DNA from: Anaspis maculata
Lineage: Eukaryota > Arthropoda > Insecta > Coleoptera > Scraptiidae
NCBI GenBank assembly: GCA_949128115.1
Contig: OX421965.1
Span: 57,468,012-57,532,011 of the forward strand
Length of the DNA stretch: 64,000 bases
Direction of reading: 5' to 3'
This document shows positions 18,294-58,497 of the stretch, piece after piece; positions within the stretch are counted from its first letter, which is position 1, and each line of letters opens with the position of its first letter. The notes beneath the pieces are model-generated. The model ran no database searches and was not told where the DNA came from. It worked only from the letters and a program-made list of their open reading frames with translations. The position numbers were made by a program, and so were the translations under genes.

Positions 18294-18884
18294 ACGTCAT
18301 ATTACTGATCACCCTGTGTAATTATTTTTAGTGGTTAGATTGCGGTCAAGTGCGTTAAATGCCCGAGTCTGACTAGAGCCCTTGATTGCGGTGATTGACT
18401 AAAGTACCTACGTCCTGTGATTCGAGTGAGCTTGGCAAATTTTCTAGTTTAGCAGTGTAGACTTGCCGCCTACGTACCTGGTGTGACAATGGTTTGTCCA
18501 AATTTAATGTTGCCTGTCCAACTGAAATCAAAATGTTGAAATCTTTGAAAAATGTATTGTGTCATGCGCGGAAATGCGACGCGGGGGATCCGTGCGCGGG
18601 GGCTGCAAAGATGCGTTACCGTCGTTTAGACACCAAAACCGCACGGCTCCTTTCAAATTTAACAGAATTCTGGATTCGAATCGGGACACGGGCTCCAGAA
18701 CGGGAGCAAATGGCAAACTGACGGTAATAACACTAATTTTGGTTCAATACGACGGGGGTTACGCCTACACCTATTACAGTTGACCCCCTGTTGACTGACT
18801 AAAAAATTGAACAGCTCAGGTCGAATTAAAACCACTTAGATGATCCAAACTGAACTCGCCGTTATGATAAAAGCTCATACTCAC

Positions 18885-23119: not shown

Positions 23120-23209
23120 TAACGTTATTTGTCAACTACTCCTTCTTTGTTTTGATATTTAAATATAATCTAAATATAAATAATTGATTAATTTTATTAA
23201 ATTAAATAA

Positions 23210-34857: not shown

Positions 34858-35249
34858 TGTTTACGTAGGTACCTGTCCGCGCTCTGAACTATCGAAATGA
34901 AAAAATTAACACCTTCCGTCCCCTACTTCTTCCTTTGATCAACGTTAGATTTATTGTAATCCCACCAAAAATCCACTGCTGGAAGATCCGGGGAGCGCTC
35001 AGGCCAAAGTTAATTTCTTCGTTTTGAATTCGAAGAATCTGACTTTATGTACAGGGTCCGGCAGAATATCTGTCTGCTGTCATGGGTGTACCTAAAATGC
35101 GGAACAGGAACAGGAATGGAACAGACTTTGCCTGGTAAAAGGGAATAAGTCCGCAACGGGCAGAACGTGCGATTTTTCCAACAGATTTATATATAACAGA
35201 CCTTGTTGTGATGCAGAGAGCTAGCCTGTGATGGGAAAGAATTATATCA

Positions 35250-38176
35250 GATAGTATAAACCCCGTTGATCACCCCCAACAGCGGTGAAAAATTAGTCAG
35301 AAGTCTGTTCCACAAAAACGGGCAAACCGTGCGCTTTTTTGAACAGAAACTTATCAGAGGCCTTGCTAACGATGAGAAAGAAATTTTCAAATATTTGGAA
35401 CCCCGTTCATCCCCCAACGAGGGGTTGGAAATTACGTCAGAAGTCTGTTCCGCAAAGTGCGGAACGAACAAACCGTGCGCTTACTTTGAACAGAAACTTA
35501 TCAGAGGCCTTGCTAATGATTAGAAAGAATTTTTCAAATAGTCAGAACCCCGTTCATCCTCCAACAAGGGGTTGAAAATTACGTCAGAAGTCTGTTCCGC
35601 GAAGTGCGGAACGGGCAAACCGTGCGCTTTTTTTGAACAAAAACTCATCAGAGCCCTTGCTAATGATTGGGAAGAATTTTTCAAATAGTCAAAGCCCCGT
35701 TCATCCCCCAACGAGGGGTTGAAAATTACGTCAGTAGTCTGTTCCGCAAAGTACGGAACGGGCAAACCGTGCGCTTTTTTCGGACAAAAACTCATCAGAG
35801 GCCTTGCCAATAATGAGAAAGAATTTTTCAAATAGTCAAAACCCCGTTCATCCCCCAACGAGGGGTTGAAAATCACGTCAGTAGTCATTTCCGCAAAGTG
35901 CGGAACGGGCAAACCGTGCGCTTTTTTTGAACAAAAACTCATCAGAGGCCTTGCTAATGATGGGGAAGAATTTTTCAAATAGTCAAAACCCCGTTCATCC
36001 CCCAACGAAGGGTTGAACATTACGTCGGAAGTCTGTTCCGCAAAGTGCGGAACGGGCAAACCGTGCGCTTTTTTCGGACAAAAACTCATCAGAGGCCTTG
36101 CCAATATTGAGAAAGAATTTTTCAAATAATCAAAACCCCGTTCATCCCCCAACAAGGGGTTGAAAATTACGTCAGAAGTCTGTTCCGCAAAGTGCGGAAC
36201 GGGCAAACCGTGCGCTTTCTTTGAAGAAAAACTCATCAGAGGCCTTGCTAATGATAGGGAAGAATTTTTCGAATAGTCAAAACCCCGTTCATCCCCCAAC
36301 AAGGGGTTGAAAATTACGTCAGTAGTCTGTTCCGCAAAGTACGGAACGGGCAAACCGTGCGCTTTTTTCGGACAAAAACTCATCAGAGGCCTTGCTAATG
36401 ATGGAGAAGAATTTTTCAAATAGTCAAAACCCCGTTCATCCCCCAACAAGGGGTTGAAAATTACGTCAGTATTCTGTTCCGCAAAGTACGGAACGGGCAA
36501 ACCGTGCGCTTTTTTCGGACAAAAACTCATCAGAGGCCTTGCCAATAATGAGAAAGAATTTTTCAAATAGTCAAAACCCCGTTCATCCCCCAACGAGGGG
36601 TTGAAAATCACGTCAGTATTCATTTCCGCAAAGTGCGGAACGGGCAAACGGTGCGCTTTTTTTGAACAAAAACTCATCAGAGGCCTTGCTAATGATTGGG
36701 AAGAATTTTTCAAATAGTCAAAATCCCGTTCATCCCCCAACAAGGGGTTGAAAATTACGTCAGTAGTCTGTTCCGCAAAGTGCGGAACGGGCAAGCCGTG
36801 CGCTTTTTTCGGACAAAAACTCATCAGAGGCCTTGCCAATATTGGGGAAGAATTTTTCAAATTGTCAAAACCCCGTTCATCCCCCAACAAGGGATTGAAA
36901 ATTACGTCAGTAGTCTGTTCCGCAAAGTACGGAACGGGCAAACCGTGCGCTTTTTTCGGACAAAAACTCATCAGAGGCCTTGCTAATGATTGGGAAGAAT
37001 TTTTCAAATAGTCAAAACCCTGTTCATCCCCCAAAGAGGGGTTGAAAATTACGTCGGAAGTCTGTTCCGCAAAGTGCGGAACGGGCAAACCGTGCGCTTT
37101 TTTTGAACAAAAACTCATCAGAGGCCTTGCTAATGATTGGGAAGAATTTTTCAATTAGTCAAAACCCCGTTCATCCCCCAAAGAGGGGTTGAAAATTACG
37201 TCGGAAGTCTGTTCCGCAAAGTGCGGAACGGGCAAACCGTGCGCTTTTTTTTAACAAAAACTCATCAGAGGCCTTGCTAATGATTGGGAAGAATTTTTCA
37301 AATAGTCCAAACCCCGTTCATCCCCCAACGAGGGATTGAAAATTACGTCAGAAGTCTGTTCCGCAAAGTCCGGAACGGGCAAACCGTGCGCTTTTTTTGA
37401 ACAAAAACTCATCAGAGGCCATGCTAATGATTGGGAAGAATTTTTCAATTAGTCAAAACCCCGTTCATCCCCCAAAGAGGGGTTGAAAATTACGTCGGAA
37501 GTCTGTTCCGCAAAGTGCGGAACGGGCAAACCGTGCGCTTTTTTTGAACAAAAACTCATCAGAGGCCTTGCTAATGATTGGGGAGAATTTTTCAAATAGT
37601 CAAAACCCCGTTCATCCCCTAACGAGGGGTTGAAAATTACGTCAGAAGTCTGTTCCGCAAAGTCCGGAACGGGCAAACCGTGCGCTTTTTTTGAACAAAA
37701 ACTCATCAGAGGCCATGCTAATGATTGGGAAGAATTTTTCAAATAGTCAAAACCCCGTTCATCCCCTAACGAGGGGTTGAAAATTACGTCAGTAGTCTGT
37801 TCCGCAAAGTGCGGAACGGGCAAACCGTGCCCTTTTTTTTGAACAAAAACTCATCAGAGGCCTTGCTAATGATTGGGAAGAATTTTTCAAATAGTCAAAA
37901 CCCCGTTCATTCCCTAACGAGGGGTTGAAAATTACGTCAGTAGTCTGTTCCGCAAAGTGCGGAACGGGCAAACCGTGCGCTTTTTTTGAACAAAAACTCA
38001 TCAGGGGCCTTGCTAATGATTGGGAAGAATTTTCCAAATAGTCAAAACCCCGTTCATCCCCCAACGAGGGGTTGAAAATTACGTCGGAAGTCTGTTCCGC
38101 AAAGTGCGGAACGGGCAAACCGTGCGCTTTTTTTGAACAGAAACTCACCAGAGGCCTTGCTAATGATGAGAAAGAA
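35250..38176 (-). repeat. 147-bp satellite, left arm (about 20 units)
   Basis: Units carry the hairpin GTTCCGCAAAGTGCGGAAC and the block ACCCCGTTCATCCCCCAAC. The outermost unit, merging into the element terminus, is most diverged. A frame on the minus strand stays open through up to 11 units because 147 is divisible by three. This arm differs from the right arm at several fixed positions per unit, so the arms have evolved separately. Confidence 0.95.
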
Positions 38177-38214
38177 GGAACGGGGATGATATGATGTCAT
38201 ATTCTGGTATGAAT

Positions 38215-38885
38215 GGTATGGCATAGTATGAAATTTAAAGATGGCGGCGGAATCATGAAATTTAGCTTGAAAGTAAGAATGATCATACGTGACAAGGGTA
38301 AGTTTCAAGTTCCATGAAAATCGTTCCACTAGAAAAAAATTTTGATATGGCGGCCAAGATGGAGGCCAAGATGGCGGCGGAATCATGGAATTCAGCTTGA
38401 AGATAAGAATGATCGTACAAGACAATTGTAACTTTAAAGTTTCAAGAAAATCGTTCCACTAATAAGAAATTTCAATATGGCGGCCAAGATGGCGGCGCAA
38501 CCATGAAATCCAATATGCCCACTGATGGCCATTCACGAGGACCTGAGCTATCCATTGGAGAAAGTTCCAGGGCTCTAGATTCATTCCCCGAGGAGGAGTT
38601 CAACTTCTTAGAAGTGCACAGGAAATCTTTGTTTTGTGATAATAATAATGATAACTATGGATGTATAAAAAAAAATAATGCCCATTGGCCACCCTTGGGG
38701 ACATCAGCTATCAAAAAAAGTTTTACGAGTCTAGCTTTATTCCTGGAGGAGGAGTACAACTTCTTAATTTCTACACGGACAGACTGGTAGACAGACAGAC
38801 AGACAGACAGGCAGACAGACAGACGGACAGCCGGACGGACAGACGGACAGACAGACAAACCGGCCATATAAGCGTCATTTACTTA
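38215..38885. mobile_element. Second copy of the GGCGGCCAAGATGG/(ACAG)n element
   Basis: It has the same order as at 12995-13800: imperfect units with AATATGGCGGCCAAGATGG, a unique CATTGGCCACCCTTGG part, a GACAGACAG/GGAC run (about 38785-38862) and the end AAACCGGCCATATAAGCGTC. It lies in the loop of the giant foldback element. Confidence 0.7.
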
Positions 38886-38966
38886 CGAAAATGCGCTAAA
38901 AAGAGAAATGAAGTCACGAAACGACCTCAAAAGCTGAAGCCAAAAATGAAAAGAAATAGAGAGTTC

Positions 38967-39834
38967 TACAGGTGTCCTGGAATTAGTGTTAAAAAACTCA
39001 CAGGGAGATAGAAAATTGAAAAATAAGGGGACTTTTGTTGATAAACATACCCTCCCAAATGTATAATAACGAAGAAAATCAAAGCCTTCAAAATGTTTTT
39101 TTTTGCATACTTTTTGAACCGTTCAGCCGATTCTATTCAAATTCGAACCAAAGTTTATTAAGACAGGTCTTTATTGAACTATATTAACTAATTTCATCAG
39201 GCATTGTTAGGGGCGAAGATAATGGGGTTTTCAAGATATTTGGGTTCGAAACATTAGAAAACATCACGAAATCGCCAGGTTCCAGGGCCCAAATTGTTTT
39301 TTTTTCTGAAAAACTCCATGTTTATCAGCGGAAATGATAGTTCATCAACTTGAAACACCCAAAAAACTCATTCCAGTTGACGAATCATGGGTTTTCTTGG
39401 ATTTTAATTTTTAGGCCCAGGAAAGTGGCGATTCCGAGATGTTTTGCAATGTTTCAATCCCAAATATCCCGAAAAGTAAGCTCCTCATCAAAAATTTTCA
39501 TGAGTAACTTTTTTCTTTGAATTGAATGTAGAATTCAAAAATTGGAATAATTTCAAAAAATGATCGGAAAGGTCCAAAATAGGGAGGAAAGGGGCAGAGC
39601 ACCCCCCTATTATCTTCGCCCCTAAAATCAGTAAGCTTTAGTTCCAATTTGACTGAAATCGATTAAACGGTTCAAAAAATACGCAAAAAAAAACTGTTTG
39701 GAAAAAACAACTTTGAAGGCCTGTATCTCTGTTTATAAGCGTTTGCGAGGGTATGTTTATTGGGAGAAGTCCCCTTATTTCTCAATTTTCTATCTCCCTG
39801 TGAGTTTTGTAACACCTATTGCGGGACACATGTA
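38967..39834. mobile_element. Palindromic foldback element, TACAGGTGTCC ends
   Basis: The ends TACAGGTGTCCTGGAATTAG and TACATGTGTCCCGCAATAGG pair, and the arms pair through CACAGGGAGATAGAAAATTG and AACCGTTCA. Interior text (AGATATTTGGGTT, CGAAATCGCCA) resembles that of the element at 4753-5791, so the two are relatives. From 39835 to 40501 I see only an unmatched 79-codon minus-strand frame and no feature I can support. Confidence 0.75.
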
Positions 39835-40501
39835 TTAAAAAAAATTGACATTTCGTGTATCCTGTCAAAATTGGGCACCCTGTAAAGCTGAAAATAATTT
39901 CAGGTCATAGGTCACATAGAACCATATACCTTTTCTCTTGTACCTATCTTTTTTTATATTTTGAAGGGGAGAGTCGTAATATGGGATAAATAGATACACT
40001 ATACAGGGTTCAGTTACTTCAGTTTCACAATGTGCATCAAGATTCCTTTTTGAATTACAAATCATCGGTGTGTTTCTGGGAAGTTGATCCAGGAAATATC
40101 CCAATATCTTAATCGCAACTCGAGAAATGAATGTTACGCAGTAAATGCAGCATCAATGATCGAATTCTATTTTACGAGTACTTGTTTTGTCAACATTTCA
40201 TTTCAAATTATTATAGGAGAACTAGTTATTGGAAACATTCCGTGAATTTTTGATATCGAGTGTTAAATCTGCAAGGATATGTCTCACTGAAAATGAGGCA
40301 TGTGTCATGGTGTTATTGGAGTATTGGATGATTTTCTAATTGAACGCTGAAGGTAAGTCATTACTCATTATATAGTCATCAAAATTTAATACTAAAACAG
40401 GTTCCATGTGAAACTCCTTCATTCAATAAATCCCAAAGTGGGTTCTATCTTGTCACATAGGAACTTAGTCTTACATAATTTTTTGTTTTCTAAATTTTAC
40501 A

Positions 40502-41712
40502 TGTAGCGCAAATAAACTTGCGGAGGCAACATATTTGATTGATGCCCAATAACTGTGAATTAATTACTGTCGGTGTGTCAGGATGACTGCAGATAATCGA
40601 AAATAATAAATGCAATCACTTTCGCTAATTCAACTCTATTAATAAAAATGGCACTTCACGGGTAACTCAATGACTTAAATTACGTTAATACTAAAAATAC
40701 TTGATAACCAGGCCCGTGGAAGACAGGACTGAACTCAGGATGACTCTGGATTGCGTTTACCTGAAAATAAAAACCGCTGTGAGCAACCCTTTCATTCTTA
40801 GCGTTTTATTCACACTTTATTACTGGTCATTTCACGACACCATATAATGCAGAGCAAGGTAAGAGTACCTGATGCGGTGTCAAATGACTTCTCAACTTCA
40901 GACTTAAGCCCTACTCTCTGCCCCACTTCGGTAGTGCAATGGGTGTGTACTCTCAACTCAGTACAGGCACCCCTCCCCCAGAAGTCGTACACCAGCCCAA
41001 CAACTCTAGGCTACGCCACATACATGGCCAGTATTTACAGCGGGCTGTGCAATGGTCCCGGACCAGCTCTAGTAAATACCAAATTTGTCAACAACCAGGT
41101 GATCAGCCTGAACGCCACTTAACCTGTACTGAAGGGTGCAATGGTACTTCCTCGTGGTCAAGCAAAGTACCGCTCCAGCTACAGGAGCTAGTGCAGAGTG
41201 TGCGAATGAAGCTACAGAGGCTAATAATGGCACCTCTAGGTAGTTCTCTCCTGTCACTAACAAGACAAACAACAACAAGAATGTGTACTTCTTTAGGCAA
41301 GAGCATTGCTGAAGACTATGCCATTTAAATATGCGCGTACGCAATGATACTTAAAACAATACAAACAAAAGGATATGCTCAATGAGATAAACTCACCTAA
41401 TAATCGTAGTACTCGATTCACACAAAATAACTCACAGGTACCTATAATGCACAAAACAACAACACAGCTTCTCTGTTTGACTTCTTTCGCGTTAATGCGC
41501 CCTTCTGAATGTGTATCAAGGCACACTCGACCCAAAGGACCGGAAGGCCCATGAAATCAGCGTGACCTTTCGCCACCCGAAAGCTCGAGAGTTTTAGCTA
41601 AGAGGGTGCCGCGCGTTGGAATGCTGCAACGTGCACCTGTTATGCATTTTGTGTTTTGAATCTTTTTCATTTTAATACCAAAATTTACCATTGAAAATTC
41701 ATGTGTCTTACA
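40502..41712 (-). repeat. 3' LTR (1211 bp)
   Basis: It begins TGTAGCGCAAATAAACTTGC and ends TTACA in plus orientation (TG...CA). It matches the other LTR at every position I compared except one (T at about 41434, C in the partner). The plus-strand flank is TACA at 40498-40501. Confidence 0.92.
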
Positions 41713-41779
41713 TTCGGCCATCCTGCATTCATCGCGTCCCGCGATGACTTGGACCAGGTGCGTCGAGTTGGCTGCCTAG

Positions 41780-42679
41780 TCAGGCTAGTGGCTTTGAGGT
41801 GTCGCGTTGCTTTTTGTAGCAATTAGCCTCGACATGCCCGGTACGGTTACAATAGGCACATTTCTTCTCGGAGTTTGAAGTTGTCGTGCGAACTCTACAG
41901 TCCCTGGCAATGTGGCCGCTTTTCCTACAATTGAAACATTCATTGCGCTCCTTATTTCCCGAACTGTCGTTCTTTTTGTTAGATTCAGGCTCATAGTCCG
42001 AGTCAGAGTCAGTTTGGTGGTATTCCTCAAAAGTTGAAGACGGGACAGTATTTAAAAATTCATGGAGTGACTCTGGGCTTTGGAACTTTGCGGCCCTGGC
42101 AGACGTCCTCACCACGTTGTCGTCCAGCCCACCGATTAGGCAGGACACCGCTTCCGTCCCGTGAATGTCGCAGCTAGTTAAAAGTGCGCACTTTTCGTAA
42201 AAGTACTTGGAGTACGACTCTTCAGGCCTCTTGCGTCGTTGCAACATCTCCGTTAATGCGGCGCAGAAATCTTTCCGGTAGGGAAAGGCTTGCTGCAATT
42301 TCACCTTCCATTCGTCCCAGGAGAGCTTGATGGTCGCGAGCCCACGAAACCAAATTTCCGCGAGGCCGCGAAGTCGACCCAAAGCAAAGTAAATGGTGGC
42401 TTCTTCCGACCACCCGAAAACCGCCCTTAACTCATCGACTTTTAGGCACCATGTCGCAATGGCTTGGTCCTTATCCTCGGGATCAAACAAAGGGATGGTG
42501 TCACCCCGCACATTGGTGTTTTCTTGCCTGCTTGTCGTCGTATTCTTCACGAAATCTGCCATAATAGCAGTGAGACGGGCCAGATGGGCATTGGTATCAA
42601 GTTCCCCGCTGCCGCTGGTCGTAATAGTATTGCCTTCGTCCGATGGTGTTTGGTCACGAGCCCGTTTACGATTCGACAT
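41780..42679 (-). CDS. Retrotransposon Gag polyprotein with two zinc knuckles
   Basis: The 299-aa intact frame begins MSNRKRARDQTPSDEGN. The central part (FDPEDKDQAIATWCLKVDEL, then GRLRGLAEIWFRGL, then WDEWKVKLQQAFP) is the typical capsid-like Gag fold of Ty3/gypsy elements. Two CX2CX4HX4C knuckles follow at about residues 248-261 (CFNCRKSGHIARDC) and 274-287 (CAYCNRTGHVEANC). They bind RNA for packaging. The stop lies about 68 bp before the 3' LTR, so no pol frame fits. The absence of stops or frameshifts suggests recent activity or retained function in trans packaging. Confidence 0.93.
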   Translation of the reverse strand: MSNRKRARDQTPSDEGNTITTSGSGELDTNAHLARLTAIMADFVKNTTTSRQENTNVRGDTIPLFDPEDKDQAIATWCLKVDELRAVFGWSEEATIYFALGRLRGLAEIWFRGLATIKLSWDEWKVKLQQAFPYRKDFCAALTEMLQRRKRPEESYSKYFYEKCALLTSCDIHGTEAVSCLIGGLDDNVVRTSARAAKFQSPESLHEFLNTVPSSTFEEYHQTDSDSDYEPESNKKNDSSGNKERNECFNCRKSGHIARDCRVRTTTSNSEKKCAYCNRTGHVEANCYKKQRDTSKPLA

Positions 42680-42851
42680 GCTGAATTGGTGAATGGTTTT
42701 GACGAGGGTGTTTAAGAGAATGCGACGCGTTTAGCTTGAGGGAAGAAAATTACCTAATATTAAAATTCGGAACCGACAATTTGTTTTTAATCGTTTTACC
42801 ATCCAGAGTTCAGTACCTAGTGTCTTTTATAAAAATCCCACTTCTGAAAAA

Positions 42852-44062
42852 TGTAGCGCAAATAAACTTGCGGAGGCAACATATTTGATTGATGCCCAAT
42901 AACTGTGAATTAATTACTGTCGGTGTGTCAGGATGACTGCAGATAATCGAAAATAATAAATGCAATCACTTTCGCTAATTCAACTCTATTAATAAAAATG
43001 GCACTTCACGGGTAACTCAATGACTTAAATTACGTTAATACTAAAAATACTTGATAACCAGGCCCGTGGAAGACAGGACTGAACTCAGGATGACTCTGGA
43101 TTGCGTTTACCTGAAAATAAAAACCGCTGTGAGCAACCCTTTCATTCTTAGCGTTTTATTCACACTTTATTACTGGTCATTTCACGACACCATATAATGC
43201 AGAGCAAGGTAAGAGTACCTGATGCGGTGTCAAATGACTTCTCAACTTCAGACTTAAGCCCTACTCTCTGCCCCACTTCGGTAGTGCAATGGGTGTGTAC
43301 TCTCAACTCAGTACAGGCACCCCTCCCCCAGAAGTCGTACACCAGCCCAACAACTCTAGGCTACGCCACATACATGGCCAGTATTTACAGCGGGCTGTGC
43401 AATGGTCCCGGACCAGCTCTAGTAAATACCAAATTTGTCAACAACCAGGTGATCAGCCTGAACGCCACTTAACCTGTACTGAAGGGTGCAATGGTACTTC
43501 CTCGTGGTCAAGCAAAGTACCGCTCCAGCTACAGGAGCTAGTGCAGAGTGTGCGAATGAAGCTACAGAGGCTAATAATGGCACCTCTAGGTAGTTCTCTC
43601 CTGTCACTAACAAGACAAACAACAACAAGAATGTGTACTTCTTTAGGCAAGAGCATTGCTGAAGACTATGCCATTTAAATATGCGCGTACGCAATGATAC
43701 TTAAAACAATACAAACAAAAGGATATGCTCAATGAGATAAACTCACCTAATAATCGTAGTACTCGATTCACACAAAATAACTCACAGGTACCTACAATGC
43801 ACAAAACAACAACACAGCTTCTCTGTTTGACTTCTTTCGCGTTAATGCGCCCTTCTGAATGTGTATCAAGGCACACTCGACCCAAAGGACCGGAAGGCCC
43901 ATGAAATCAGCGTGACCTTTCGCCACCCGAAAGCTCGAGAGTTTTAGCTAAGAGGGTGCCGCGCGTTGGAATGCTGCAACGTGCACCTGTTATGCATTTT
44001 GTGTTTTGAATCTTTTTCATTTTAATACCAAAATTTACCATTGAAAATTCATGTGTCTTACA
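42852..44062 (-). repeat. 5' LTR (1211 bp)
   Basis: This is the partner of the repeat at 40502-41712 and carries the element's promoter in minus orientation. It ends TTACA next to the TACA duplication. Open frames inside it repeat those of the other LTR and are not genes. Confidence 0.92.
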
Positions 44063-44188
44063 TACATAGTTTACGATTCAATGATACATTGGAACCTCTA
44101 CCCCTCTAAGTCTAACCTCACATGTTTCAAGTTTCTACAACAAAAAGTCACACTTAGCACTGTTGAAGGCTTTTGAGAGGTCGAGGTT

Positions 44189-47100
44189 AGAAGAAAATTC
44201 ACACGGTTTGTCCGTCTCGCTCTTTGCGAAACAGATTTCTGACGCAATTTCTCACCTCCGGTAGGGGTTGAACGGGGTTCCTACTATCTGGAATAAGAAT
44301 TTCATCACCACCAAGGACTCTGATGAGTTTCTGTTGAAGAAAAACGCACGGTTTGCCCGTTCCGCACTTTGCGGAACAGACTTCTGACGTAATTTTCAAC
44401 CCCTTGTTGGGGGATGAACGGGGTTCTGACCATTTAAAAAATTCTTCCTCATCACTGGAAAGGCCTCTGATGAGTTTCTGTTCAAAAAACGCGCACGTTG
44501 TGCTCGTTCCGCACTTTGCGGAACAGACTTCTGACGTTATTTCCAACCCCTTGCTGGGGGATGAACGGGGTTCTGACCATTTGAAAAATTCTTCCTCATC
44601 ACTGGCAAGGCCTCTGATGAGTTTCTGTTCAAAAAACGCGCACGGTGTGCTCGTTCCGCACTTTGCGGAACAGACTTCTGACGTTATTTCCAACCCCTTG
44701 CTGGGGGATGAACGGGGTTCTGACTATTCGAAAAATTCTTCCTCATCACTGGCAAGGCCTCTGATGAGTTTCTGTTCAAAAAACGCGTACGGTTTGCTCG
44801 TTCCGCACTTTGCGGAACAGACTTCTGACGTTATTTCCAACCCCTTGCTGGGGGATGAACGGGGTTCTGACCATTTGAAAAATTCTTCCTCATCACTGGC
44901 AAGGCCTCTGATGAGTTTCTGTTCAAAAAACGCGCACGGTGTGCTCGTTCCGCACTTTGCGGAACAGACTTCTGACGTTATTTCCAACCCCTTGCTGGGG
45001 GATGAACGGGGTTCTGACCATTTGAAAAATTCTTCCTCATCACTGGCAAGGCCTCTGATGAGTTTCTGTTCAAAAAACGCGCACGGTGTGCTCGTTCCGC
45101 ACTTTGCGGAACAGACTTCTGACGTTATTTCCAACCCCTTGCTGGGGGATGAACGGGGTTCTGACTATTTGAAAAATTCTTCCTTATCACTGGCAAGGCC
45201 TCTGATGAGTTTCTGTTCAAAAAACGCGTACGGTTTGCTCGTTCCGCACTTTGCGGAACAGACTTCTGACGTTATTTCCAACCCCTTGCTGGGGGATGAA
45301 CGGGGTTCTGACTATTTGAAAAATTCTTCCTTATCACTGGCAAGGCCTCTGATGAGTTTCTGTTAAAAAAACGCGTACGGTTTGCTCGTTCCGCACTTTG
45401 CGGAACAGACTTCTGACGTTATTTCCAACCCCTTGCTGGGGGATTAACGGGGTTCTGACTATTTGAAAAATTCTTCCTTATCACTGGCAAGGCCTCTGAT
45501 GAGTTTCTGTTCAAAAAACGCCAACGGTTTGCTCGTTCCGCACTTTGCGGAACAGACTTCTGACGTTATTTCCAACCCCTTGCTGGGGGATGAACGGGGT
45601 TCTCACTATTTGAAAAATTCTTCCTTATCACTGGCAAGGCCTCTGATGAGTTTCTGTTCAACAAACGGGTACGGTTTGCTCGTTCCGCACTTTGCGGAAC
45701 AGACTTCTGACGTTATTTCCAACCCCTTGCTTGGGGATGAACGGGGTTCTGACTATTTGAAAAATTCTTCCTTATCACTGGCAAGGCCTCTGATGAGTTT
45801 CTGTTCAAAAAACGCCAACGGTTTGCTCGTTCCGCACTTTGCGGAACAGACTTCTGACGTTATTTCCAACCCCTTGCTGGGGGATGAACGGGGTTCTGAC
45901 CATTTGAAAAATTCTTCCTCATCACTGACAAGGCCTCTGATGAGTTTCTGTTCAAAAAACGCGCACGGTGTGCTCGTTCCGCACTTTGCGGAACAGACTT
46001 CTGACGTTATTTCCAACCCCTTGCTGGGGGATGAACGGGGTTCTGACTATTTGAAAAATTCTTCCTTATCACTGGCAAGGCCTCTGATGAGTTTCTGTTC
46101 AAAAAACGCGCACGTTGTGCTCGTTCCGCACTTTGCGGAACAGACTTCTGACGTTATTTCCAACCCCTTGTTGGGGGATGAACGGGGTTCTGACTATTTG
46201 AAAAATTCTTCCTCATCACTGGCAAGGCCTCTGATGAGTTTCTGTTCAAAAAACGCGTACGGTTTGCTCGTTCCGCACTTTGCGGAACAGACTTCTGACG
46301 TTATTTCCAACCCCTTGCTGAAGGATGAACGGGGTTCTGACTATTTGAAAAATTCTTCCTTATCACTGGCAAGGCCTCTGATGAGTTTCTGTTCAAAAAA
46401 CGCGTACGGTTTGCTCGTTCCGCACTTTGCGGAACAGACTTCTGACGTTATTTCCAACCCCTTGCTGGGGGATGAACGGGGTTCTGACCATTTGAAAAAT
46501 TCTTCCTCATAACTGGCAAGGCCTCTGATGAGTTTCTGTTCAAAAAACGCGTACGGTTTGCTCGTTCCGCACTTTGCGGAACAGACTTCTGACGTTATTT
46601 CCAACGCCTTGCTGGGGGATGAACGGGGTTCTGACTATTTGAAAAATTCTTCCTTATCACTGGCAAGGCCTCTGATGAGTTTCTGTTCAAAAAACGCCAA
46701 CGGTTTGCTCGTTCCGCACTTTGCGGAACAGACTTCTGACGTTATTTCCAACCCCTTGCTGGGGGATGAACGGGGTTCTGACCATTTGAAAAATTCTTCC
46801 TCATAACTGGCAAGGCCTCTGATGAGTTTCTGTTCAAAAAACGCGCACGGTTTGCTCGTTCCGCACTTTGCGGAACAGACTTCTGACGTTATTTCCAACG
46901 CCTTGCTGGGGGATGAACGGGGTTCTCACTATTTGAAAAATTCTTCCTTATCACTGGCAAGGCCTCTGATGAGTTTCTGTTCAAAAAACGCGTACGGTTT
47001 GCTCGTTCCGCACTTTGCGGAACAGACTTCCGACGTTATTTCCAACCCCTTGCTGGGGGATGAACGGGGTTCTGACTATTTGAAAAATTCTTCCTTATCA

Positions 47101-50100
47101 CTGGCAAGGCCTCTGATGAGTTTCTGTTCAAAAAACGCGTACGGTTTGCTCGTTCCGCACTTTGCGGAACAGACTTCTGACGTTATTTTCAACCCCTTGC
47201 TGGGGGATGAACGGGGTTCTGACTATTTGAAAAATTCTTTCTTATCACTGGCAAGGCCTCTGATGAGTTTCTGTTCAAAAAACGCGTACGGTTTGCTCGT
47301 TCCGCACTTTGCGGAACAGACTTCTGACGTTATTTCCAACCCCTTGCTGGGGGATGAACGGGGTTCTGACTATTTGAAAAATTCTTCCTTATCACTGGCA
47401 AGGCCTCTGATGAGTTTCTGTTCAAAAAACGCGCACGGTTTGCTCGTTCCGCACTTTGCGGAACAGACTTCTGACGTTATTTCCAACGCCTTGCTGGGGG
47501 ATGAACGGGGTTCTGACCATTTGAAAAATTCTTCCTCATCACTGGCAAGGCCTCTGATGAGTTTCTGTTCAAAAAACGCGCACGGTGTGCTCGTTCCGCA
47601 CTTTGCGGAACAGACTTCTGACGTTATTTCCAACCCCTTGCTGGGGGATGAACGGGGTTCTGACCATTTGAAAAATTCTTCCTCATCACTGGCAAGGCCT
47701 CTGATGAGTTTCTGTTCAAAAAACGCGCACGGTGTGCTCGTTCCGCACTTTGCGGAACAGACTTCTGACGTTATTTCCAACCCCTTGCTGGGGGATGAAC
47801 GGGGTTCTGACTATTTGAAAAATTCTTCCTTATCACTGGCAAGGCCTCTGATGAGTTTCTGTTCAAAAAACGCCAACGGTTTGCTCGTTCCGCACTTTGC
47901 GGAACAGACTTCTGACGTTATTTCCAACCCCTTGCTGGGGGATGAACGGGGTTCTCACTATTTGAAAAATTCTTCCTTATCACTGGCAAGGCCTCTGATG
48001 AGTTTCTGTTCAAAAAACGCGTACGGTTTGCTCGTTCCGCACTTTGCGGAACAGACTTCCGACGTTATTTCCAACCCCTTGCTGGGGGATGAACGGGGTT
48101 CTGACTATTTGAAAAATTCTTCCTTATCACTGGCAAGGCCTCTGATGAGTTTCTGTTCAAAAAACGCGTACGGTTTGCTCGTTCCGCACTTTGCGGAACA
48201 GACTTCTGACGTTATTTTCAACCCCTTGCTGGGGGATGAACGGGGTTCTGACTATTTGAAAAATTCTTTCTTATCACTGGCAAGGCCTCTGATGAGTTTC
48301 TGTTCAAAAAACGCGTACGGTTTGCTCGTTCCGCACTTTGCGGAACAGACTTCTGACGTTATTTCCAACCCCTTGCTGGGGGATGAACGGGGTTCTGACT
48401 ATTTGAAAAATTCTTCCTTATCACTGGCAAGGCCTCTGATGAGTTTCTGTTCAAAAAACGCGTACGGTTTGCTCGTTCCGCACTTTGCGGAACAGACTTC
48501 TGACGTTATTTCCAACCCCTTGCTGGGGGATGAACGGGGTTCTGACTATTTGAAAAATTCTTCCTTATCACTGGCAAGGCCTCTGATGAGTTTCTGTTCA
48601 AAAAACGCGTACGGTTTGCTCGTTCCGCACTTTGCGGAACAGACTTCTGACGTTATTTCCAACCCCTTGCTGGGGAATGAACGGGGTTCTGACCATTTGA
48701 AAAATTCTTCCTCATCACTGGCAAGGCCACTGATGAGTTTCTGTTCAGAAAACGCGTACGGTTTGCTCGTTCCGCACTTTGCGGAACAGACTTCTGACGT
48801 TATTTCCAACCCCTTGCTGGGGGATGAACGGGGTTCTGACTATTTGAAAAATTCTTCCTTATCACTGGCAAGGCCTCTGATGAGTTTCTGTTCAAAAAAC
48901 GCGTACGGTTTGCTCGTTCCGCACTTTGCGGAACAGACTTCTGACGTTATTTCCAACCCCTTGCTGGGGGATGAACGGGGTTCTGACTATTTGAAAAATT
49001 CTTCCTTATCACTGGCAAGGCCTCTGATGAGTTTCTGTTCAAAAAACGCGTACGGTTTGCTCGTTCCGCACTTTGCGGAACAGACTTCTGACGTTATTTT
49101 CAACCCCTTGCTGGGGGATGAACGGGGTTCTGACTATTTGAAAAATTCTTCCTCATCACTGGCAAGGCCTCTGATGAGTTTCTGTTCAAAAAACGCGTAC
49201 GGTTTGCTCGTTCCGCACTTTGCGGAACAGACTTCTGACGTTATTTCCAACCCCTTGCTGGGGGATGAACGGGGTTCTGACTATTTGAAAAATTCTTTCT
49301 TATCACTGGCAAGGCCTCTGATGAGTTTCTGTTCAAAAAACGCGTACGGTTTGCTCGTTCCGCACTTTGCGGAACAGACTTCTGACGTTATTTCCAACCC
49401 CTTGCTGGGGGATGAACGGGGTTCTGACTATTTGAAAAATTCTTTCTTATCACTGGCAAGGCCTCTGATGAGTTTCTGTTCAAAAAACGCGTACGGTTTG
49501 CTCGTTCCGCACTTTGCGGAACAGACTTCTGACGTTATTTTCAACCCCTTGCTGGGGGATGAACGGGGTTCTGACTATTTGAAAAATTCTTCCTCATCAC
49601 TGGCAAGGCCTCTGATGAGTTTCTGTTCAAAAAACGCGTACGGTTTGCTCGTTCCGCACTTTGCGGAACAGACTTCTGACGTTATTTTCAACCCCTTGCT
49701 GGGGGATGAACGGGGTTCTGACTATTTGAAAAATTCTTTCTTATCACTGGCAAGGCCTCTGATGAGTTTCTGTTCAAAAAACGCGTACGGTTTGCTCGTT
49801 CCGCACTTTGCGGAACAGACTTCTGACGTTATTTTCAACCCCTTGCTGGGGGATGAACGGGGTTCTGACTATTTGAAAAATTCTTCCTCATCACTGGCAA
49901 GGCCTCTGATGAGTTTCTGTTCAAAAAACGCGTACGGTTTGCTCGTTCCGCACTTTGCGGAACAGACTTCTGACGTTATTTTCAACCCCTTGCTGGGGGA
50001 TGAACGGGGTTCTGACTATTTGAAAAATTCTTTCTTATCACTGGCAAGGCCTCTGATGAGTTTCTGTTCAAAAAACGCGTACGGTTTGCTCGTTCCGCAC

Positions 50101-53100
50101 TTTGCGGAACAGACTTCTGACGTTATTTTCAACCCCTTGCTGGGGGATGAACGGGGTTCTGACTATTTGAAAAATTCTTCCTCATCACTGGCAAGGCCTC
50201 TGATGAGTTTCTGTTCAAAAAACGCGTACGGTTTGCTCGTTCCGCACTTTGCGGAACAGACTTCTGACGTTATTTTCAACCCCTTGCTGGGGGATGAACG
50301 GGGTTCTGACTATTTGAAAAATTCTTCCTCATCACTGGCAAGGCCTCTGATGAGTTTCTGTTCAAAAAACGCGTACGGTTTGCTCGTTCCGCACTTTGCG
50401 GAACAGACTTCTGACGTTATTTTCAACCCCTTGCTGGGGGATGAACGGGGTTCTGACTATTTGAAAAATTCTTTCTTATCACTGGCAAGGCCTCTGATGA
50501 GTTTCTGTTCAAAAAACGCGTACGGTTTGCTCGTTCCGCACTTTGCGGAACAGACTTCTGACGTTATTTTCAACCCCTTGCTGGGGGATGAACGGGGTTC
50601 TGACTATTTGAAAAATTCTTCCTCATCACTGGCAAGGCCTCTGATGAGTTTCTGTTCAAAAAACGCGTACGGTTTGCTCGTTCCGCACTTTGCGGAACAG
50701 ACTTCTGACGTTATTTTCAACCCCTTGCTGGGGGATGAACGGGGTTCTGACTATTTGAAAAATTCTTTCTTATCACTGGCAAGGCCTCTGATGAGTTTCT
50801 GTTCAAAAAACGCGTACGGTTTGCTCGTTCCGCACTTTGCGGAACAGACTTCTGACGTTATTTTCAACCCCTTGCTGGGGGATGAACGGGGTTCTGACTA
50901 TTTGAAAAATTCTTCCTCATCACTGGCAAGGCCTCTGATGAGTTTCTGTTCAAAAAACGCGTACGGTTTGCTCGTTCCGCACTTTGCGGAACAGACTTCT
51001 GACGTTATTTTCAACCCCTTGCTGGGGGATGAACGGGGTTCTGACTATTTGAAAAATTCTTCCTCATCACTGGCAAGGCCTCTGATGAGTTTCTGTTCAA
51101 AAAACGCGTACGGTTTGCTCGTTCCGCACTTTGCGGAACAGACTTCTGACGTTATTTTCAACCCCTTGCTGGGGGATGAACGGGGTTCTGACTATTTGAA
51201 AAATTCTTTCTTATCACTGGCAAGGCCTCTGATGAGTTTCTGTTCAAAAAACGCGTACGGTTTGCTCGTTCCGCACTTTGCGGAACAGACTTCTGACGTT
51301 ATTTCCAACCCCTTGCTGGGGGATGAACGGGGTTCTGACTATTTGAAAAATTCTTCCTTATCACTGGCAAGGCCTCTGATGAGTTTCTGTTCAAAAAACG
51401 CGTACGGTTTGCTCGTTCCGCACTTTGCGGAACAGACTTCTGACGTTATTTCCAACCCCTTGCTGGGGGATGAACGGGGTTCTGACTATTTGAAAAATTC
51501 TTCCTTATCACTGGCAAGGCCTCTGATGAGTTTCTGTTCAAAAAACGCGTACGGTTTGCTCGTTCCGCACTTTGCGGAACAGACTTCTGACGTTATTTTC
51601 AACCCCTTGCTGGGGGATGAACGGGGTTCTGACTATTTGAAAAATTCTTCCTCATCACTGGCAAGGCCTCTGATGAGTTTCTGTTCAAAAAACGCGTACG
51701 GTTTGCTCGTTCCGCACTTTGCGGAACAGACTTCTGACGTTATTTCCAACCCCTTGCTGGGGGATGAACGGGGTTCTGACTATTTGAAAAATTCTTCCTT
51801 ATCACTGGCAAGGCCTCTGATGAGTTTCTGTTCAAAAAACGCGTACGGTTTGCTCGTTCCGCACTTTGCGGAACAGACTTCTGACGTTATTTCCAACCCC
51901 TTGCTGGGGGATGAACGGGGTTCTGACTATTTGAAAAATTCTTCCTTATCACTGGCAAGGCCTCTGATGAGTTTCTGTTCAAAAAACGCGTACGGTTTGC
52001 TCGTTCCGCACTTTGCGGAACAGACTTCTGACGTTATTTCCAACCCCTTGCTGGGGGATGAACGGGGTTCTGACTATTTGAAAAATTCTTCCTTATCACT
52101 GGCAAGGCCTCTGATGAGTTTCTGTTCAAAAAACGCGTACGGTTTGCTCGTTCCGCACTTTGCGGAACAGACTTCTGACGTTATTTTCAACCCCTTGCTG
52201 GGGGATGAACGGGGTTCTGACTATTTGAAAAATTCTTCCTCATCACTGGCAAGGCCTCTGATGAGTTTCTGTTCAAAAAACGCGTACGGTTTGCTCGTTC
52301 CGCACTTTGCGGAACAGACTTCTGACGTTATTTCCAACCCCTTGCTGGGGGATGAACGGGGTTCTGACTATTTGAAAAATTCTTCCTTATCACTGGCAAG
52401 GCCTCTGATGAGTTTCTGTTCAAAAAACGCGTACGGTTTGCTCGTTCCGCACTTTGCGGAACAGACTTCTGACGTTATTTCCAACCCCTTGCTGGGGGAT
52501 GAACGGGGTTCTGACTATTTGAAAAATTCTTCCTTATCACTGGCAAGGCCTCTGATGAGTTTCTGTTCAAAAAACGCGTACGGTTTGCTCGTTCCGCACT
52601 TTGCGGAACAGACTTCTGACGTTATTTTCAACCCCTTGCTGGGGGATGAACGGGGTTCTGACTATTTGAAAAATTCTTCCTCATCACTGGCAAGGCCTCT
52701 GATGAGTTTCTGTTCAAAAAACGCGTACGGTTTGCTCGTTCCGCACTTTGCGGAACAGACTTCTGACGTTATTTCCAACCCCTTGCTGGGGGATGAACGG
52801 GGTTCTGACTATTTGAAAAATTCTTCCTTATCACTGGCAAGGCCTCTGATGAGTTTCTGTTCAAAAAACGCGTACGGTTTGCTCGTTCCGCACTTTGCGG
52901 AACAGACTTCTGACGTTATTTCCAACCCCTTGCTGGGGGATGAACGGGGTTCTGACTATTTGAAAAATTCTTCCTTATCACTGGCAAGGCCTCTGATGAG
53001 TTTCTGTTCAAAAAACGCGTACGGTTTGCTCGTTCCGCACTTTGCGGAACAGACTTCTGACGTTATTTCCAACCCCTTGCTGGGGGATGAACGGGGTTCT

Positions 53101-56100
53101 GACTATTTGAAAAATTCTTCCTTATCACTGGCAAGGCCTCTGATGAGTTTCTGTTCAAAAAACGCGTACGGTTTGCTCGTTCCGCACTTTGCGGAACAGA
53201 CTTCTGACGTTATTTCCAACCCCTTGCTGGGGGATGAACGGGGTTCTGACCATTTGAAAAATTCTTCCTCATCACTGGCAAGGCCTCTGATGAGTTTCTG
53301 TTCAAAAAACGCGCACGGTGTGCTCGTTCCGCACTTTGCGGAACAGACTTCTGACGTTATTTCCAACCCCTTGCTGGGGGATGAACGGGGTTCTGACTAT
53401 TTGAAAAATTCTTCCTTATCACTGGCAAGGCCTCTGATGAGTTTCTGTTCAAAAAACGCGTACGGTTTGCTCGTTCCGCACTTTGCGGAACAGACTTCTG
53501 ACGTTATTTCCAACCCCTTGCTGGGGGATGAACGGGGTTCTGACTATTTGAAAAATTCTTCCTTATCACTGGCAAGGCCTCTGATGAGTTTCTGTTCAAA
53601 AAACGCGTACGGTTTGCTCGTTCCGCACTTTGCGGAACAGACTTCTGACGTTATTTTCAACCCCTTGCTGGGGGATGAACGGGGTTCTGACTATTTGAAA
53701 AATTCTTCCTCATCACTGGCAAGGCCTCTGATGAGTTTCTGTTCAAAAAACGCGTACGGTTTGCTCGTTCCGCACTTTGCGGAACAGACTTCTGACGTTA
53801 TTTCCAACCCCTTGCTGGGGGATGAACGGGGTTCTGACTATTTGAAAAATTCTTCCTTATCACTGGCAAGGCCTCTGATGAGTTTCTGTTCAAAAAACGC
53901 GTACGGTTTGCTCGTTCCGCACTTTGCGGAACAGACTTCTGACGTTATTTCCAACCCCTTGCTGGGGGATGAACGGGGTTCTGACTATTTGAAAAATTCT
54001 TCCTTATCACTGGCAAGGCCTCTGATGAGTTTCTGTTCAAAAAACGCGTACGGTTTGCTCGTTCCGCACTTTGCGGAACAGACTTCTGACGTTATTTCCA
54101 ACCCCTTGCTGGGGGATGAACGGGGTTCTGACTATTTGAAAAATTCTTCCTTATCACTGGCAAGGCCTCTGATGAGTTTCTGTTCAAAAAACGCGTACGG
54201 TTTGCTCGTTCCGCACTTTGCGGAACAGACTTCTGACGTTATTTTCAACCCCTTGCTGGGGGATGAACGGGGTTCTGACTATTTGAAAAATTCTTCCTCA
54301 TCACTGGCAAGGCCTCTGATGAGTTTCTGTTCAAAAAACGCGTACGGTTTGCTCGTTCCGCACTTTGCGGAACAGACTTCTGACGTTATTTCCAACCCCT
54401 TGCTGGGGGATGAACGGGGTTCTGACTATTTGAAAAATTCTTCCTGATCACTGGCAAGGCCTCTGATGAGTTTCTGTTCAAAAAACGCGTACGGTTTGCT
54501 CGTTCCGCACTTTGCGGAACAGACTTCTGACGTTATTTCCAACCCCTTGCTGGGGGATGAACGGGGTTTTGACTATTTGAAAAATTCTTCCTTATCACTG
54601 GCAAGGCCTCTGATGAGTTTCTGTTCAAAAAACGCGTACGGTTTGCTCGTTCCGCACTTTGCGGAACAGACTTCTGACGTTATTTCCAACCCCTTGCTGG
54701 GGAATGAACGGGGTTCTGACCATTTGAAAAATTCTTCCTCATCACTGGCAAGGCCACTGATGAGTTTCTGTTCAGAAAACGCGTACGGTTTGCTCGTTCC
54801 GCACTTTGCGGAACAGACTTCTGACGTTATTTCCAACCCCTTGCTGGGGGATGAACGGGGTTCTGACTATTTGAAAAATTCTTCCTTATCACTGGCAAGG
54901 CCTCTGATGAGTTTCTGTTCAAAAAACGCGTACGGTTTGCTCGTTCCGCACTTTGCGGAACAGACTTCTGACGTTATTTCCAACCCCTTGCTGGGGGATG
55001 AACGGGGTTCTGACTATTTGAAAAATTCTTCCTTATCACTGGCAAGGCCTCTGATGAGTTTCTGTTCAAAAAACGCGTACGGTTTGCTCGTTCCGCACTT
55101 TGCGGAACAGACTTCTGACGTTATTTCCAACCCCTTGCTGGGGAATGAACGGGGTTCTGACCATTTGAAAAATTCTTCCTCATCACTGGCAAGGCCACTG
55201 ATGAGTTTCTGTTCAGAAAACGCGTACGGTTTGCTCGTTCCGCACTTTGCGGAACAGACTTCTGACGTTATTTCCAACCCCTTGCTGGGGGATGAACGGG
55301 GTTCTGACCATTTGAAAAATTCTTCCTCATCACTGGCAAGGCCTCTGATGAGTTTCTGTTCAAAAAACGCGCACGGTGTGCTCGTTCCGCACTTTGCGGA
55401 ACAGACTTCTGACGTTATTTCCAACCCCTTGCTGGGGGATGAACGGGGTTCTGACTATTTGAAAAATTCTTCCTTATCACTGGCAAGGCCTCTGATGAGT
55501 TTCTGTTCAAAAAACGCGTACGGTTTGCTCGTTCCGCACTTTGCGGAACAGACTTCTGACGTTATTTCCAACCCCTTGCTGGGGGATGAACGGGGTTCTG
55601 ACTATTTGAAAAATTCTTCCTTATCACTGGCAAGGCCTCTGATGAGTTTCTGTTCAAAAAACGCGTACGGTTTGCTCGTTCCGCACTTTGCGGAACAGAC
55701 TTCTGACGTTATTTTCAACCCCTTGCTGGGGGATGAACGGGGTTCTGACTATTTGAAAAATTCTTCCTCATCACTGGCAAGGCCTCTGATGAGTTTCTGT
55801 TCAAAAAACGCGTACGGTTTGCTCGTTCCGCACTTTGCGGAACAGACTTCTGACGTTATTTCCAACCCCTTGCTGGGGGATGAACGGGGTTCTGACTATT
55901 TGAAAAATTCTTCCTTATCACTGGCAAGGCCTCTGATGAGTTTCTGTTCAAAAAACGCGTACGGTTTGCTCGTTCCGCACTTTGCGGAACAGACTTCTGA
56001 CGTTATTTCCAACCCCTTGCTGGGGGATGAACGGGGTTCTGACTATTTGAAAAATTCTTCCTTATCACTGGCAAGGCCTCTGATGAGTTTCTGTTCAAAA

Positions 56101-56800
56101 AACGCGTACGGTTTGCTCGTTCCGCACTTTGCGGAACAGACTTCTGACGTTATTTCCAACCCCTTGCTGGGGGATGAACGGGGTTCTGACTATTTGAAAA
56201 ATTCTTCCTTATCACTGGCAAGGCCTCTGATGAGTTTCTGTTCAAAAAACGCGTACGGTTTGCTCGTTCCGCACTTTGCGGAACAGACTTCTGACGTTAT
56301 TTTCAACCCCTTGCTGGGGGATGAACGGGGTTCTGACTATTTGAAAAATTCTTCCTCATCACTGGCAAGGCCTCTGATGAGTTTCTGTTCAAAAAACGCG
56401 TACGGTTTGCTCGTTCCGCACTTTGCGGAACAGACTTCTGACGTTATTTCCAACCCCTTGCTGGGGGATGAACGGGGTTCTGACTATTTGAAAAATTCTT
56501 CCTTATCACTGGCAAGGCCTCTGATGAGTTTCTGTTCAAAAAACGCGTACGGTTTGCTCGTTCCGCACTTTGCGGAACAGACTTCTGACGTTATTTCCAA
56601 CCCCTTGCTGGGGGATGAACGGGGTTTTGACTATTTGAAAAATTCTTCCTTATCACTGGCAAGGCCTCTGATGAGTTTCTGTTCAAAAAACGCGTACGGT
56701 TTGCCCGTTCCGCACTTTGCGGAACATACTTCTGACGTAATTTTTCATCCCCGTTGGGGGATGAACGGGGTTTAAACTATCTGATATAATTTTCCATCAC
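44189..56800 (+). repeat. 147-bp satellite, right arm (about 86 units)
   Basis: Units of exactly 147 bp carry GTTCCGCACTTTGCGGAAC and CCCCTTGCTGGGGGATGAAC. The first two (44189-44480) and last units are diverged; the rest differ at a few variable sites. Higher-order order is visible: alternating two-unit pattern at about 49080-51200, three- to five-unit patterns at 51300-56600. A rare variant (GGGGAATGAAC plus AGGCCACTGATG) recurs at 48672, 54699 and 55140, exactly 41 and 3 units apart. A 2541-codon frame (46822-54447) exists only because of the unit length. Confidence 0.96.
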
Positions 56801-57331
56801 AGGCTAGCTCTCTGCATCACAAACCAGGTCTGTGATATATAAATATGTTGGAAAAATCGCACGTTTTGCCTGTTGCGGACTTATTCCCTTTTACTACGCA
56901 AAGTCTGTTCCATTCCTGTTCCTGTTCCGCATTTTAGATTTACCCTGCTGTCATTGTTGGAAACTCAGCGTCACGCATTGATTTTTAGGAAAAACTAAAT
57001 CAATCTGCCAATATGACACTACATATTGGAAAATTTGAGGGAAAATCAAAACAATGCCAATCTGTCACTACACCATTTCTCCTATTGAACATTTTTCTTT
57101 TGGACTCTGGAGGCCTCTTGCAGCTCTCTGAGACTCCTTCCCTGATCCCTGCTTCCTGAATCATAGTGCTTTTTTAATAAAGACGCCAATTTGTCTTTCA
57201 GAATAGAATAGGTATAAGTATCTACTCAACCTGCTGGGCTTTTGAACAAAAACTTACCAGGTTCCTGGATACTCACCGGAACAGTATTAATTGTAGCGGC
57301 CTACCACAACAGATTTCTGTTTTCATGTCAG

Positions 57332-58497
57332 TTGTCCCGCTGTTCATGGTCCAAGGGGGCGATATAATAAACGGCGATGGAACCGGAGGGGAATCAATAT
57401 ATGGCGCACAGTTGAACGACGAAAACTTCACAATCACGGTACTACCTCAATTCACTGCTGGTGAAGACACTCGTGAATCAATTGATTTTTCCAGCACGAC
57501 AAAGAAGGTTTGGTGGGAGTTCCAAACAGCGGTCCCAACACCGGAAATTCTCAATTTTACATTACCACAGTCCCTTGCTCGCATCTCGATGGCACTAATG
57601 TCGTCTTCGGAATCGTAAGGAAAGGTCTGAATGTCATTTTGGAAATGTCCGAAGTCCCACGAGATGAAGATATACCACTAGAAGTACTTACACACCAACG
57701 ACATGACTAGATAGTAGAAATGACGTTATGAGCGCTCGCGGTTGTCAGCAGTGAGGGGGCGATACGAAAACACGCCAGTGTTGAAAGGGCCGCGCCAAAT
57801 AACCCCCCGACCTGCGAATGTCGGCTTCACTCGATAGTATCTAGCCATATCGTTGCTAAAAAAAAATTGATGTGTTTTTTTTTTCTAATTTCTATTATTT
57901 TAGCCCATTATCATTGATAATTGTGGTGAATTGAAACCAGGCGAGGCATGGGGGATCGAAGAACAGGATGCGACAGAAGACGTGTATCCGCCATGGCCGA
58001 ATGACTGGGACGCTGGTCAAGACGCCAGTAAAATTATAATCGAGGAAGCCATCCACAAGATAAAAAATTCGGGAAACTACTTTTTCAAAGCAAAAAACTT
58101 GGTCGATTCAGAGAGAAAGTACAAAAAGGCATTGAGGTACATCGACTGGTACCTCGGGAGTGACGAAGGCATCGACGCCGACGACATTGAAGACTTGAAG
58201 ATCGCCTGCGTCATGAATCTGGCCACCGTTCGAACGAAAATGGGCAAGCACAAGGAAGCAATAGAGCTTTGCAATCAAGTAATCTCCAAGGACCCGAACA
58301 ATGGCAAAGCATTTTACAGAAGGGCGCAGGCCAAGTTGGCCATGAAAGAGTACGACAAAGCCTTGCTGGATCTGAACACGGCAATCGCGTTGTATCCGAA
58401 CGATAAAAATATCCAGACTCTGTTGCATATGGCCAAGAAAAACAAGCTTACTTACCTGAAGAAGGAGAGACGAATATTTGCCAATTTGTTCAAGTAA
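57332..58497 (+). CDS. PPID: Cyclophilin-40 (PPID) exons 3 to 5
   Basis: Exon 3 is 57332-57438, a 56-bp intron ends TTTTTCCAG, exon 4 is 57495-57683, and exon 5 is 57904-58497 after acceptor TATTTTAG. All phases agree and the full protein is 371 aa (human PPID is 370). Cyclophilin residues present are Phe80, Gln83, Gln131 and His141, the last replacing Trp121 of cyclophilin A as in human Cyp40. The Phe113 equivalent is Tyr133 and the His126 equivalent is Asn146. Exon 5 supplies the linker (CGELKPGEAWG) and three TPRs. The carboxylate clamp for the Hsp90 MEEVD tail is complete: Lys228, Asn232, Asn279, Lys309, Arg313. A basic C-terminal helix (KKNKLTYLKKERR) follows. Confidence 0.95.

Follow-up and report, generated by a model that had tools for sequence, protein, structure and literature searches.

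Tetris of Drosophila virilis is a foldback transposon that has been described as a source of satellite units. According to the accessible part of its report, it is non-autonomous with no transposase found, its terminal inverted repeats (TIRs) hold tandem units of ~220 bp, with an outer terminal domain on one side and a noncoding middle on the other, its target duplications measure 8-10 bp, its unit number varies between alleles, and fibre fluorescence in situ hybridization (fibre-FISH) displays long arrays between two outer domains (PMC4079207). These are the respects in which Tetris resembles, by its description and not by its sequence, an element found in the beetle Anaspis maculata. The element occupies positions 35084-56945 of a stretch of 64,000 nucleotides (C5:57468012-57532011 in assembly GCA_949128115.1; here called the window) and is a complete DNA transposon of 21,862 bp bounded by a perfect 9-bp target duplication. 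In other respects the two differ: the sequenced TIRs of Tetris reach at most 1,735 bp, three complete copies are reported, 39 contigs consist of units only, and arm-specific unit lineages are not mentioned in the accessible text (PMC4079207), whereas here one arm measures 12.8 kb, complete copies are many, nearly all listed units lie inside elements, and each arm type has its own unit lineage.

Other systems share parts of this organization, as far as the available portions of their reports go. Galileo of Drosophila mojavensis likewise has tandem repeats within its TIRs, unequal in number between the two TIRs of a copy, as well as copies made of two TIRs without transposase; it differs in its TIRs of at most ~1.26 kb with up to three ~210-bp repeats and in its membership of the P superfamily (PMC3573991). 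Mosquito MULEs (Muta1) are similar in having subterminal tandem repeats in 10 of 12 long-TIR families, 8-9 bp duplications and many non-autonomous copies, but their repeats are 9-15 bp long and an active transposase is known (PMC5225508). Tm1, a Mutator/Foldback element of root-knot nematodes, differs by its ~14-bp units, its short TIRs and a known transposase-bearing copy (PMC3169594). The satellite-like arrays of oyster Helentrons are also tandem arrays dispersed by mobile elements (PMC7492417).

Results

The window element consists of the following parts:

35075..35083, no strand: left copy of the 9-bp target site duplication, TGCTGTCAT
35084..35228, plus strand: A-type terminal domain, starting GGGTGTACCTAAAATGCGGAACAGG
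35229..38168, plus strand: A arm, 20 full 147-bp units
38169..44165, no strand: noncoding core, common to the window and five other long copies, here with a long terminal repeat (LTR) element inside
40502..44063, minus strand: nested LTR element within the core
44166..56799, minus strand: B arm, 86 full 147-bp units, in the orientation opposite to the A arm
56800..56945, minus strand: B-type terminal domain, starting GGGTAAATCTAAAATGCGGAACAGG when read from outside
56946..56954, no strand: right copy of the 9-bp target site duplication, TGCTGTCAT

The duplication that the original prediction, made from the sequence alone, had placed at both borders is perfect; its 9-bp sequence occurs three times in the 64 kb, the remaining occurrence being at 6685. 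The prediction had aligned the ends over 19 bp, and the match was found to run far beyond this, covering 135 of 146 aligned columns of the terminal domains, which open differently (GGGTGTACC versus GGGTAAATC). Tandem Repeats Finder placed period-147 arrays at 35229-38167 (20.0 copies) and 44312-56772 (84.8 copies), and a unit profile counted 20 and 86 full-length units in opposite orientation. This agrees with the predicted inverted arms of about 20 and 86 units of the same repeat and with one arm of more than 12 kb (44166-56945, 12.8 kb). Toward its inner side, the A terminal domain is similar to a diverged stretch of the unit (26 of 31 bases alike; score of 37, with a maximum of 27 in 200 shuffles), a counterpart to the 37 bp that outer domain and unit of Tetris share at ~80% according to the accessible part of its report (PMC4079207). 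The B terminal domain matches the unit weakly (score of 24 versus 23).

The window element is an insertion belonging to a multi-copy family with ends like GGGnnnAnCTAAAAnnCGGAACAGG, whose terminus was searched for in 758 Mb of genome. The exact 16-bp terminus occurs 51 times (27 forward, 24 reverse), and its reversal 0 times; allowing up to 3 mismatches, a 25-bp pattern was found at 77 places compared to 2 for a control, and a looser pattern at 81 compared to 5. Fifteen convergent pairs of the exact terminus were obtained, 13 with a perfect 9-bp duplication, one with 8/9 (C6_54) and one with none (C5_66), while four further pairs came from a less strict pattern than the exact terminus, C7_546 with a perfect duplication and three without. 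The expectation that the flanks of other copies carry 9-bp duplications therefore held for the majority of copies: all 19 convergent pairs read of this family (family 1) comprise 14 perfect duplications, one of 8/9 and four failures. Five copies (C6_15, C7_539, C1_19, C9_4899 and C7_546) were read at their ends only, and C9_50, with two termini in the same orientation and no convergent pair, lies outside the count. One A end and one B end were present in 13 of the 14 duplicated copies from exact-terminus pairs. C6_28 (4.7 kb, perfect duplication) has hybrid ends, pairing a B end with a variant one. The 1.67-kb copies C5_8 and C7_21 are close to each other; their core (99.65% alike) is not that of the long copies, and their duplications differ. 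The core is small or absent in C2_46, C2_76, C4_76 and C6_54. Composites that carry modules of 20-bp repeats (ATAACACGAAATTTCGTCTT, starting TACGAAGGCGTAGAAG) outside GGGT ends were seen at C5:66653000-66657900 and C4:72.41 Mb and may be an older form or belong to a related element of larger size. In C5_66 such modules flank the GGGT ends on both sides; its inner ends lack a duplication because this copy is part of a longer composite with the modules outermost.

Empty sites were searched for with the joined flanks of 14 copies, keeping one copy of the target. With 40 of 7312 candidates scored, paralogous empty sites were found for 3 of the 14 joined flanks, with 97-100% identity across the junction at all 40 places: 8 for C3_85 (one identical over 111/111 bases), 18 for C4_76 and 14 for C6_43. 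All scored candidates belong to these three flank blocks, the block of the window not being among them, and twelve additional weak rows are second matches inside the C6_43 block. The uninterrupted repeats hold a single copy of the 9-bp target, and matches at so many places indicate that these three copies inserted in high-copy repeats. An ordinary satellite array that was inverted by chance, with a 9-bp repeat at its flanks also by chance, would explain the presence of tandem units and nothing beyond it. It is refuted by 14 of 19 pairs, whose perfect duplications sit at corresponding borders, and by the empty sites of three copies, and we regard it as practically out of the question.

The noncoding core of ~2.4-2.6 kb, common to six long copies and interrupted by extra inserts in the window and C6_43, was used as a clock, with distances taken as substitutions over its first 2240 bases. 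These were 0.31-0.40% among the window, C9_24 and C9_26, 0.49% between C6_8 and C6_43, and 1.3-3.3% for the remaining pairs of long copies. The full units in the A and B arms number 20/86, 26/27 and 51/19 in the first group and 39/9 and 21/59 in the second, so that the counts of a single arm lie 4.5-fold apart (19 and 86) at a core distance of 0.40% and 6.6-fold apart (9 and 59) at 0.49%. Arms of such different size at a distance of 0.3-0.4% show that resizing is fast. For the unit comparisons that follow (consensus, lineage, pairing and sister-family counts), units with fewer than ~120 matched model positions were excluded. In ordered comparisons among long arms, the outermost unit was nearest to the outermost unit of the other element in 56/56 (A) and 42/42 (B) cases, compared to 3.3 and 1.9 expected. 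Second units paired with second units in 32/56 (A) and 18/42 (B) comparisons, and innermost B units paired in 33/42. The A units of the window appear in the same succession as in C9_24 and C9_26, many without any difference, and near-identical blocks are duplicated inside the A arms of C9_26 (18 units), C6_8 (13 units) and C9_24 (a 4-unit block). Thus, long arrays travel with the element, and their interior turns over blockwise: array edges are conserved between copies, while interior units are gained or lost in multi-unit blocks.

Two other explanations bear on these unit counts. If copies had inserted with short arms and the arrays had grown afterwards in place, no long array would ever have transposed; the short-armed copies C2_46, C5_8, C7_21 and C9_17 and the strongly unlike arm lengths of close copies would fit such a history. 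Along most of the A arm of the window, however, the units correspond one after another to units of C9_24 and C9_26, many of them identically, and therefore an array of more than 10 units predates the separation of these copies. We consider growth after a short-armed insertion improbable, although a large part of the B arm of the window (86 units with a mean divergence of 2.7%) may have been added later in place. The counts could also be artefacts, since near-identical tandem blocks are hard to assemble and the counts come from the assembly alone. Against this, the arrays contain distinguishing variants, every outermost unit compared was in place, and each copy has its own flanks and duplications, which makes assembly errors a very improbable source of the pattern.

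The A and B arms evolve as separate lineages. Their consensus units differ at 12 of 146 positions, and for 475 of 485 full units from 15 elements (two ties), the nearest relative outside the arm was in the same-type arm of another element. When A and B labels were flipped per element in 200 trials, this number reached 471 at most, with a mean of 245. Inter-arm exchange that keeps the arms alike would be expected to produce the opposite pattern. The description of the element as a foldback transposon consequently fits its shape and not the relation of its arms, which in a foldback of the usual kind are near-identical and here hold 20 versus 86 units of different lineages. Whether near-identity is a required feature is debatable, as unequal arms also occur in other foldbacks.

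A sister family with other units was represented by eight convergent pairs, seven found with the 25-bp pattern and the eighth with the looser one. Its ends read GGGTCTATC, with GGGG- or GGGTCTATC-type starts followed by TAAAACCCGGAACAGG or a near variant. Seven pairs were read, the eighth (C7, 27.08 Mb) being outside the sample; three have perfect duplications, one has 8/9, two have none, and C2_99 is an inverted duplication. The last (C2:99765120-99770340) was kept out of the duplication count because it is an inverted duplication around one end: its two ends are alike, and at least 103 bp of host flank recur identically in the inverse direction. Arms of the four fully read elements consist of 145-bp units that are 62% alike to the 147-bp unit. 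In this small sample of 77 units, variants are shared between the arms in two of the four elements. The arms of C5_79 are 1.1% apart and 3.3-5.9% from other elements, with the opposite arm as the sole nearest for 20 of 21 units; in C1_130 it was likewise the sole nearest for 15 of 39 units, while 22 were tied and 2 spoke against. Such sharing was not seen in C2_99 (12 units) or C9_23 (5 units). The termini of the two families differ (TG versus CC), and the palindromes inside their units differ in the same direction, which would fit a co-evolution of terminus and unit. A repeat at 22317-23121 of the window is 82-88% alike to part of the sister-family core. DNA in a nucleosome core is 147 bp long, as is the unit of the window element (35229-56799); this match is possibly a coincidence, since the sister-family unit has 145 bp.

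A search for the unit found 332 matches, of which 150 were listed, with 39 of 120 candidate regions scored; it gives a lower bound, because the window's own B arm is absent from the matches listed. A terminus adjoins 146 of these 150, and the other four fall in two small arrays whose flanks, as far as read, show no terminus: one of ~17 units at C1:19939745-19942241 (flanks of 145 bp on the left and 1.7 kb on the right) and one of 5 units at C9:44.53 Mb. Both may be what is left of broken elements, or arrays that have escaped. The proposal that transposition seeds satellite DNA is therefore plausible and not demonstrated, nearly all listed units still lying beside a terminus.

The element seems to lie inside a ~36-kb intron of a gene that we take to be cyclophilin-40-like, present in pieces at 20997-58548 of the window: a frame near 21087, a piece near 57.25 kb (MVQGGDIINGDGTGGESIYG) and a frame at 57904-58497. 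Pfam found TPR repeats in the last and no domain in the two short pieces. The gene for mitochondrial DNA polymerase gamma lies at 8777-20269 on the minus strand, with the exonuclease domain PF18136 in 18884-20269; its best named matches are in the beetles Acanthoscelides obtectus (64% identity), Oryctes borbonicus (62%) and Aquatica leii (57%). Within the core, the nested element has two 1212-bp LTRs (40502-41713 and 42852-44063) with one mismatch between them, probably a TACA target duplication, and one gag-like frame of 316 amino acids with a CCHC zinc knuckle (zf-CCHC), the longest frame in the window core. The core stretch 38994-39808 contains an inverted repeat resembling a small nested element, and part of this stretch is present in opposite orientation in C5_8 and C7_21. 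Tandem repeats of ~130 bp, rich in CAAGATGGCGGC, are found outside the element (13006-13396) as well as in the core (38238-38496).

Discussion

We consider it probable that the window element is a non-autonomous TIR transposon moved in trans by a transposase that produces 9-bp target duplications, most likely one of the Mutator (MULE) superfamily. Mutator elements duplicate 8-10 bp, mostly 9, and have TIRs of more than ~100 bp; 14 of 19 pairs here have perfect 9-bp duplications, and the terminal domains of the window element exceed that TIR length. This assignment is a best guess, drawn from the length of the duplication, from the TIRs and from similarities with Tm1 and the mosquito MULEs. Target duplications of the P superfamily, to which Galileo belongs, are 7-8 bp and those found here 9 bp, while Helentrons are not known to have TIRs or target duplications of the kind found in the window element.

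Several observations weigh against this interpretation. The genome contains 67 matches to the transposase domain PF10551, 66 of them on the eight chromosomes that carry termini, and the nearest of these 66 lies 67.9 kb away from the closest of the 81 termini. The autonomous copy with a MULE or Foldback transposase that the original prediction proposed to look for was not found, no PF10551 match lying within 67 kb of the 81 termini. Judged by the core frames, none of the elements read encodes a recognisable transposase. C6_28 has no frame of more than 161 amino acids (open frames were read, a family scan was not made), and a 231-amino-acid frame in C5_64 presumably resembles a reverse transcriptase. 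Target duplications are lacking in 4 of the 19 pairs (C1_53, C5_64, C5_66 and C9_4899). Ten of the 485 units break the arm rule (four in C3_85, three in C9_17, two in C5_66 and one in C4_76); six of these, units of C3_85 and C4_76 among them, are nearest to the opposite arm of their own element, so that rare exchange between arms is possible. Innermost A units paired in merely 20/56 comparisons. Finally, conservation of the terminus motif in the units was not significant (P 0.48; P 0.85, 0.33 and 0.13 at three window sizes of the test).

The distance to PF10551 matches and the lack of a recognisable transposase in the elements read would be expected if the transposase came from another or an undescribed superfamily and the 9-bp duplication were a coincidence of length. 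Long TIRs, 9-bp duplications and repeats inside TIRs are, in the accessible parts of the reports, features of animal MULEs and Mutator/Foldback elements (PMC3169594, PMC5225508), and we hold a different superfamily to be unlikely, if well worth keeping in mind. A MULE partner with diverged ends may exist despite the distance result. Equal-scoring MULE-domain matches lie pairwise on opposite strands at C6:2578917 and 2581651 (2.7 kb apart) and at C1:7939426 and 7955566 (16 kb apart), which suggests that transposase genes were duplicated in inverted orientation.

The element inserts as one unit with its arrays already inside. Arm length probably shifts within one arm through unequal exchange or repair, which may involve sister chromatids or the repair of gaps left by excision, and exchange between arms would hardly ever occur. 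Satellite-like arrays are in this way carried by transposition and resized in place; escape to an element-free satellite is conceivable and barely seen. Each unit contains a small palindrome of the terminus motif, GTTCCGCA-AAG-TGCGGAAC, and units may for this reason act as spare transposase-binding sites, a reading of the sequence. A more tentative proposal, which we consider rather unlikely, makes arm growth part of the transposon cycle: units would serve as extra binding sites, arrays would expand during excision and repair of one arm, and transposition would both make and disperse satellite DNA, the sister families differing in mode (arms kept apart versus variants shared across the palindrome).

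The original prediction had tied a long array to a mobile element, as a route by which transposition can seed satellite DNA. The idea is known from Tetris (PMC4079207, as far as accessible), and what we did not find published is a complete element with arms of this size, most subscription journals being outside the coverage of our search. Within the literature searched, what is new comprises the 12.8-kb arm in a complete copy, several complete copies with one core in common, the empty sites of three copies, unit lineages specific to each arm type and a related family some of whose elements behave differently.

The origin of satellite arrays and their appearance at many sites is an old question. 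The family described here represents a mobile element able to carry ready-made satellite-like DNA around the genome, and its complete elements, exact borders, empty sites for some copies and shared-core clock make array turnover measurable. The contrasting behaviour of the arms in the two sister families renders exchange across a long palindrome directly testable. If arm growth does belong to the transposon cycle, the transposition system itself would make and spread satellite DNA.

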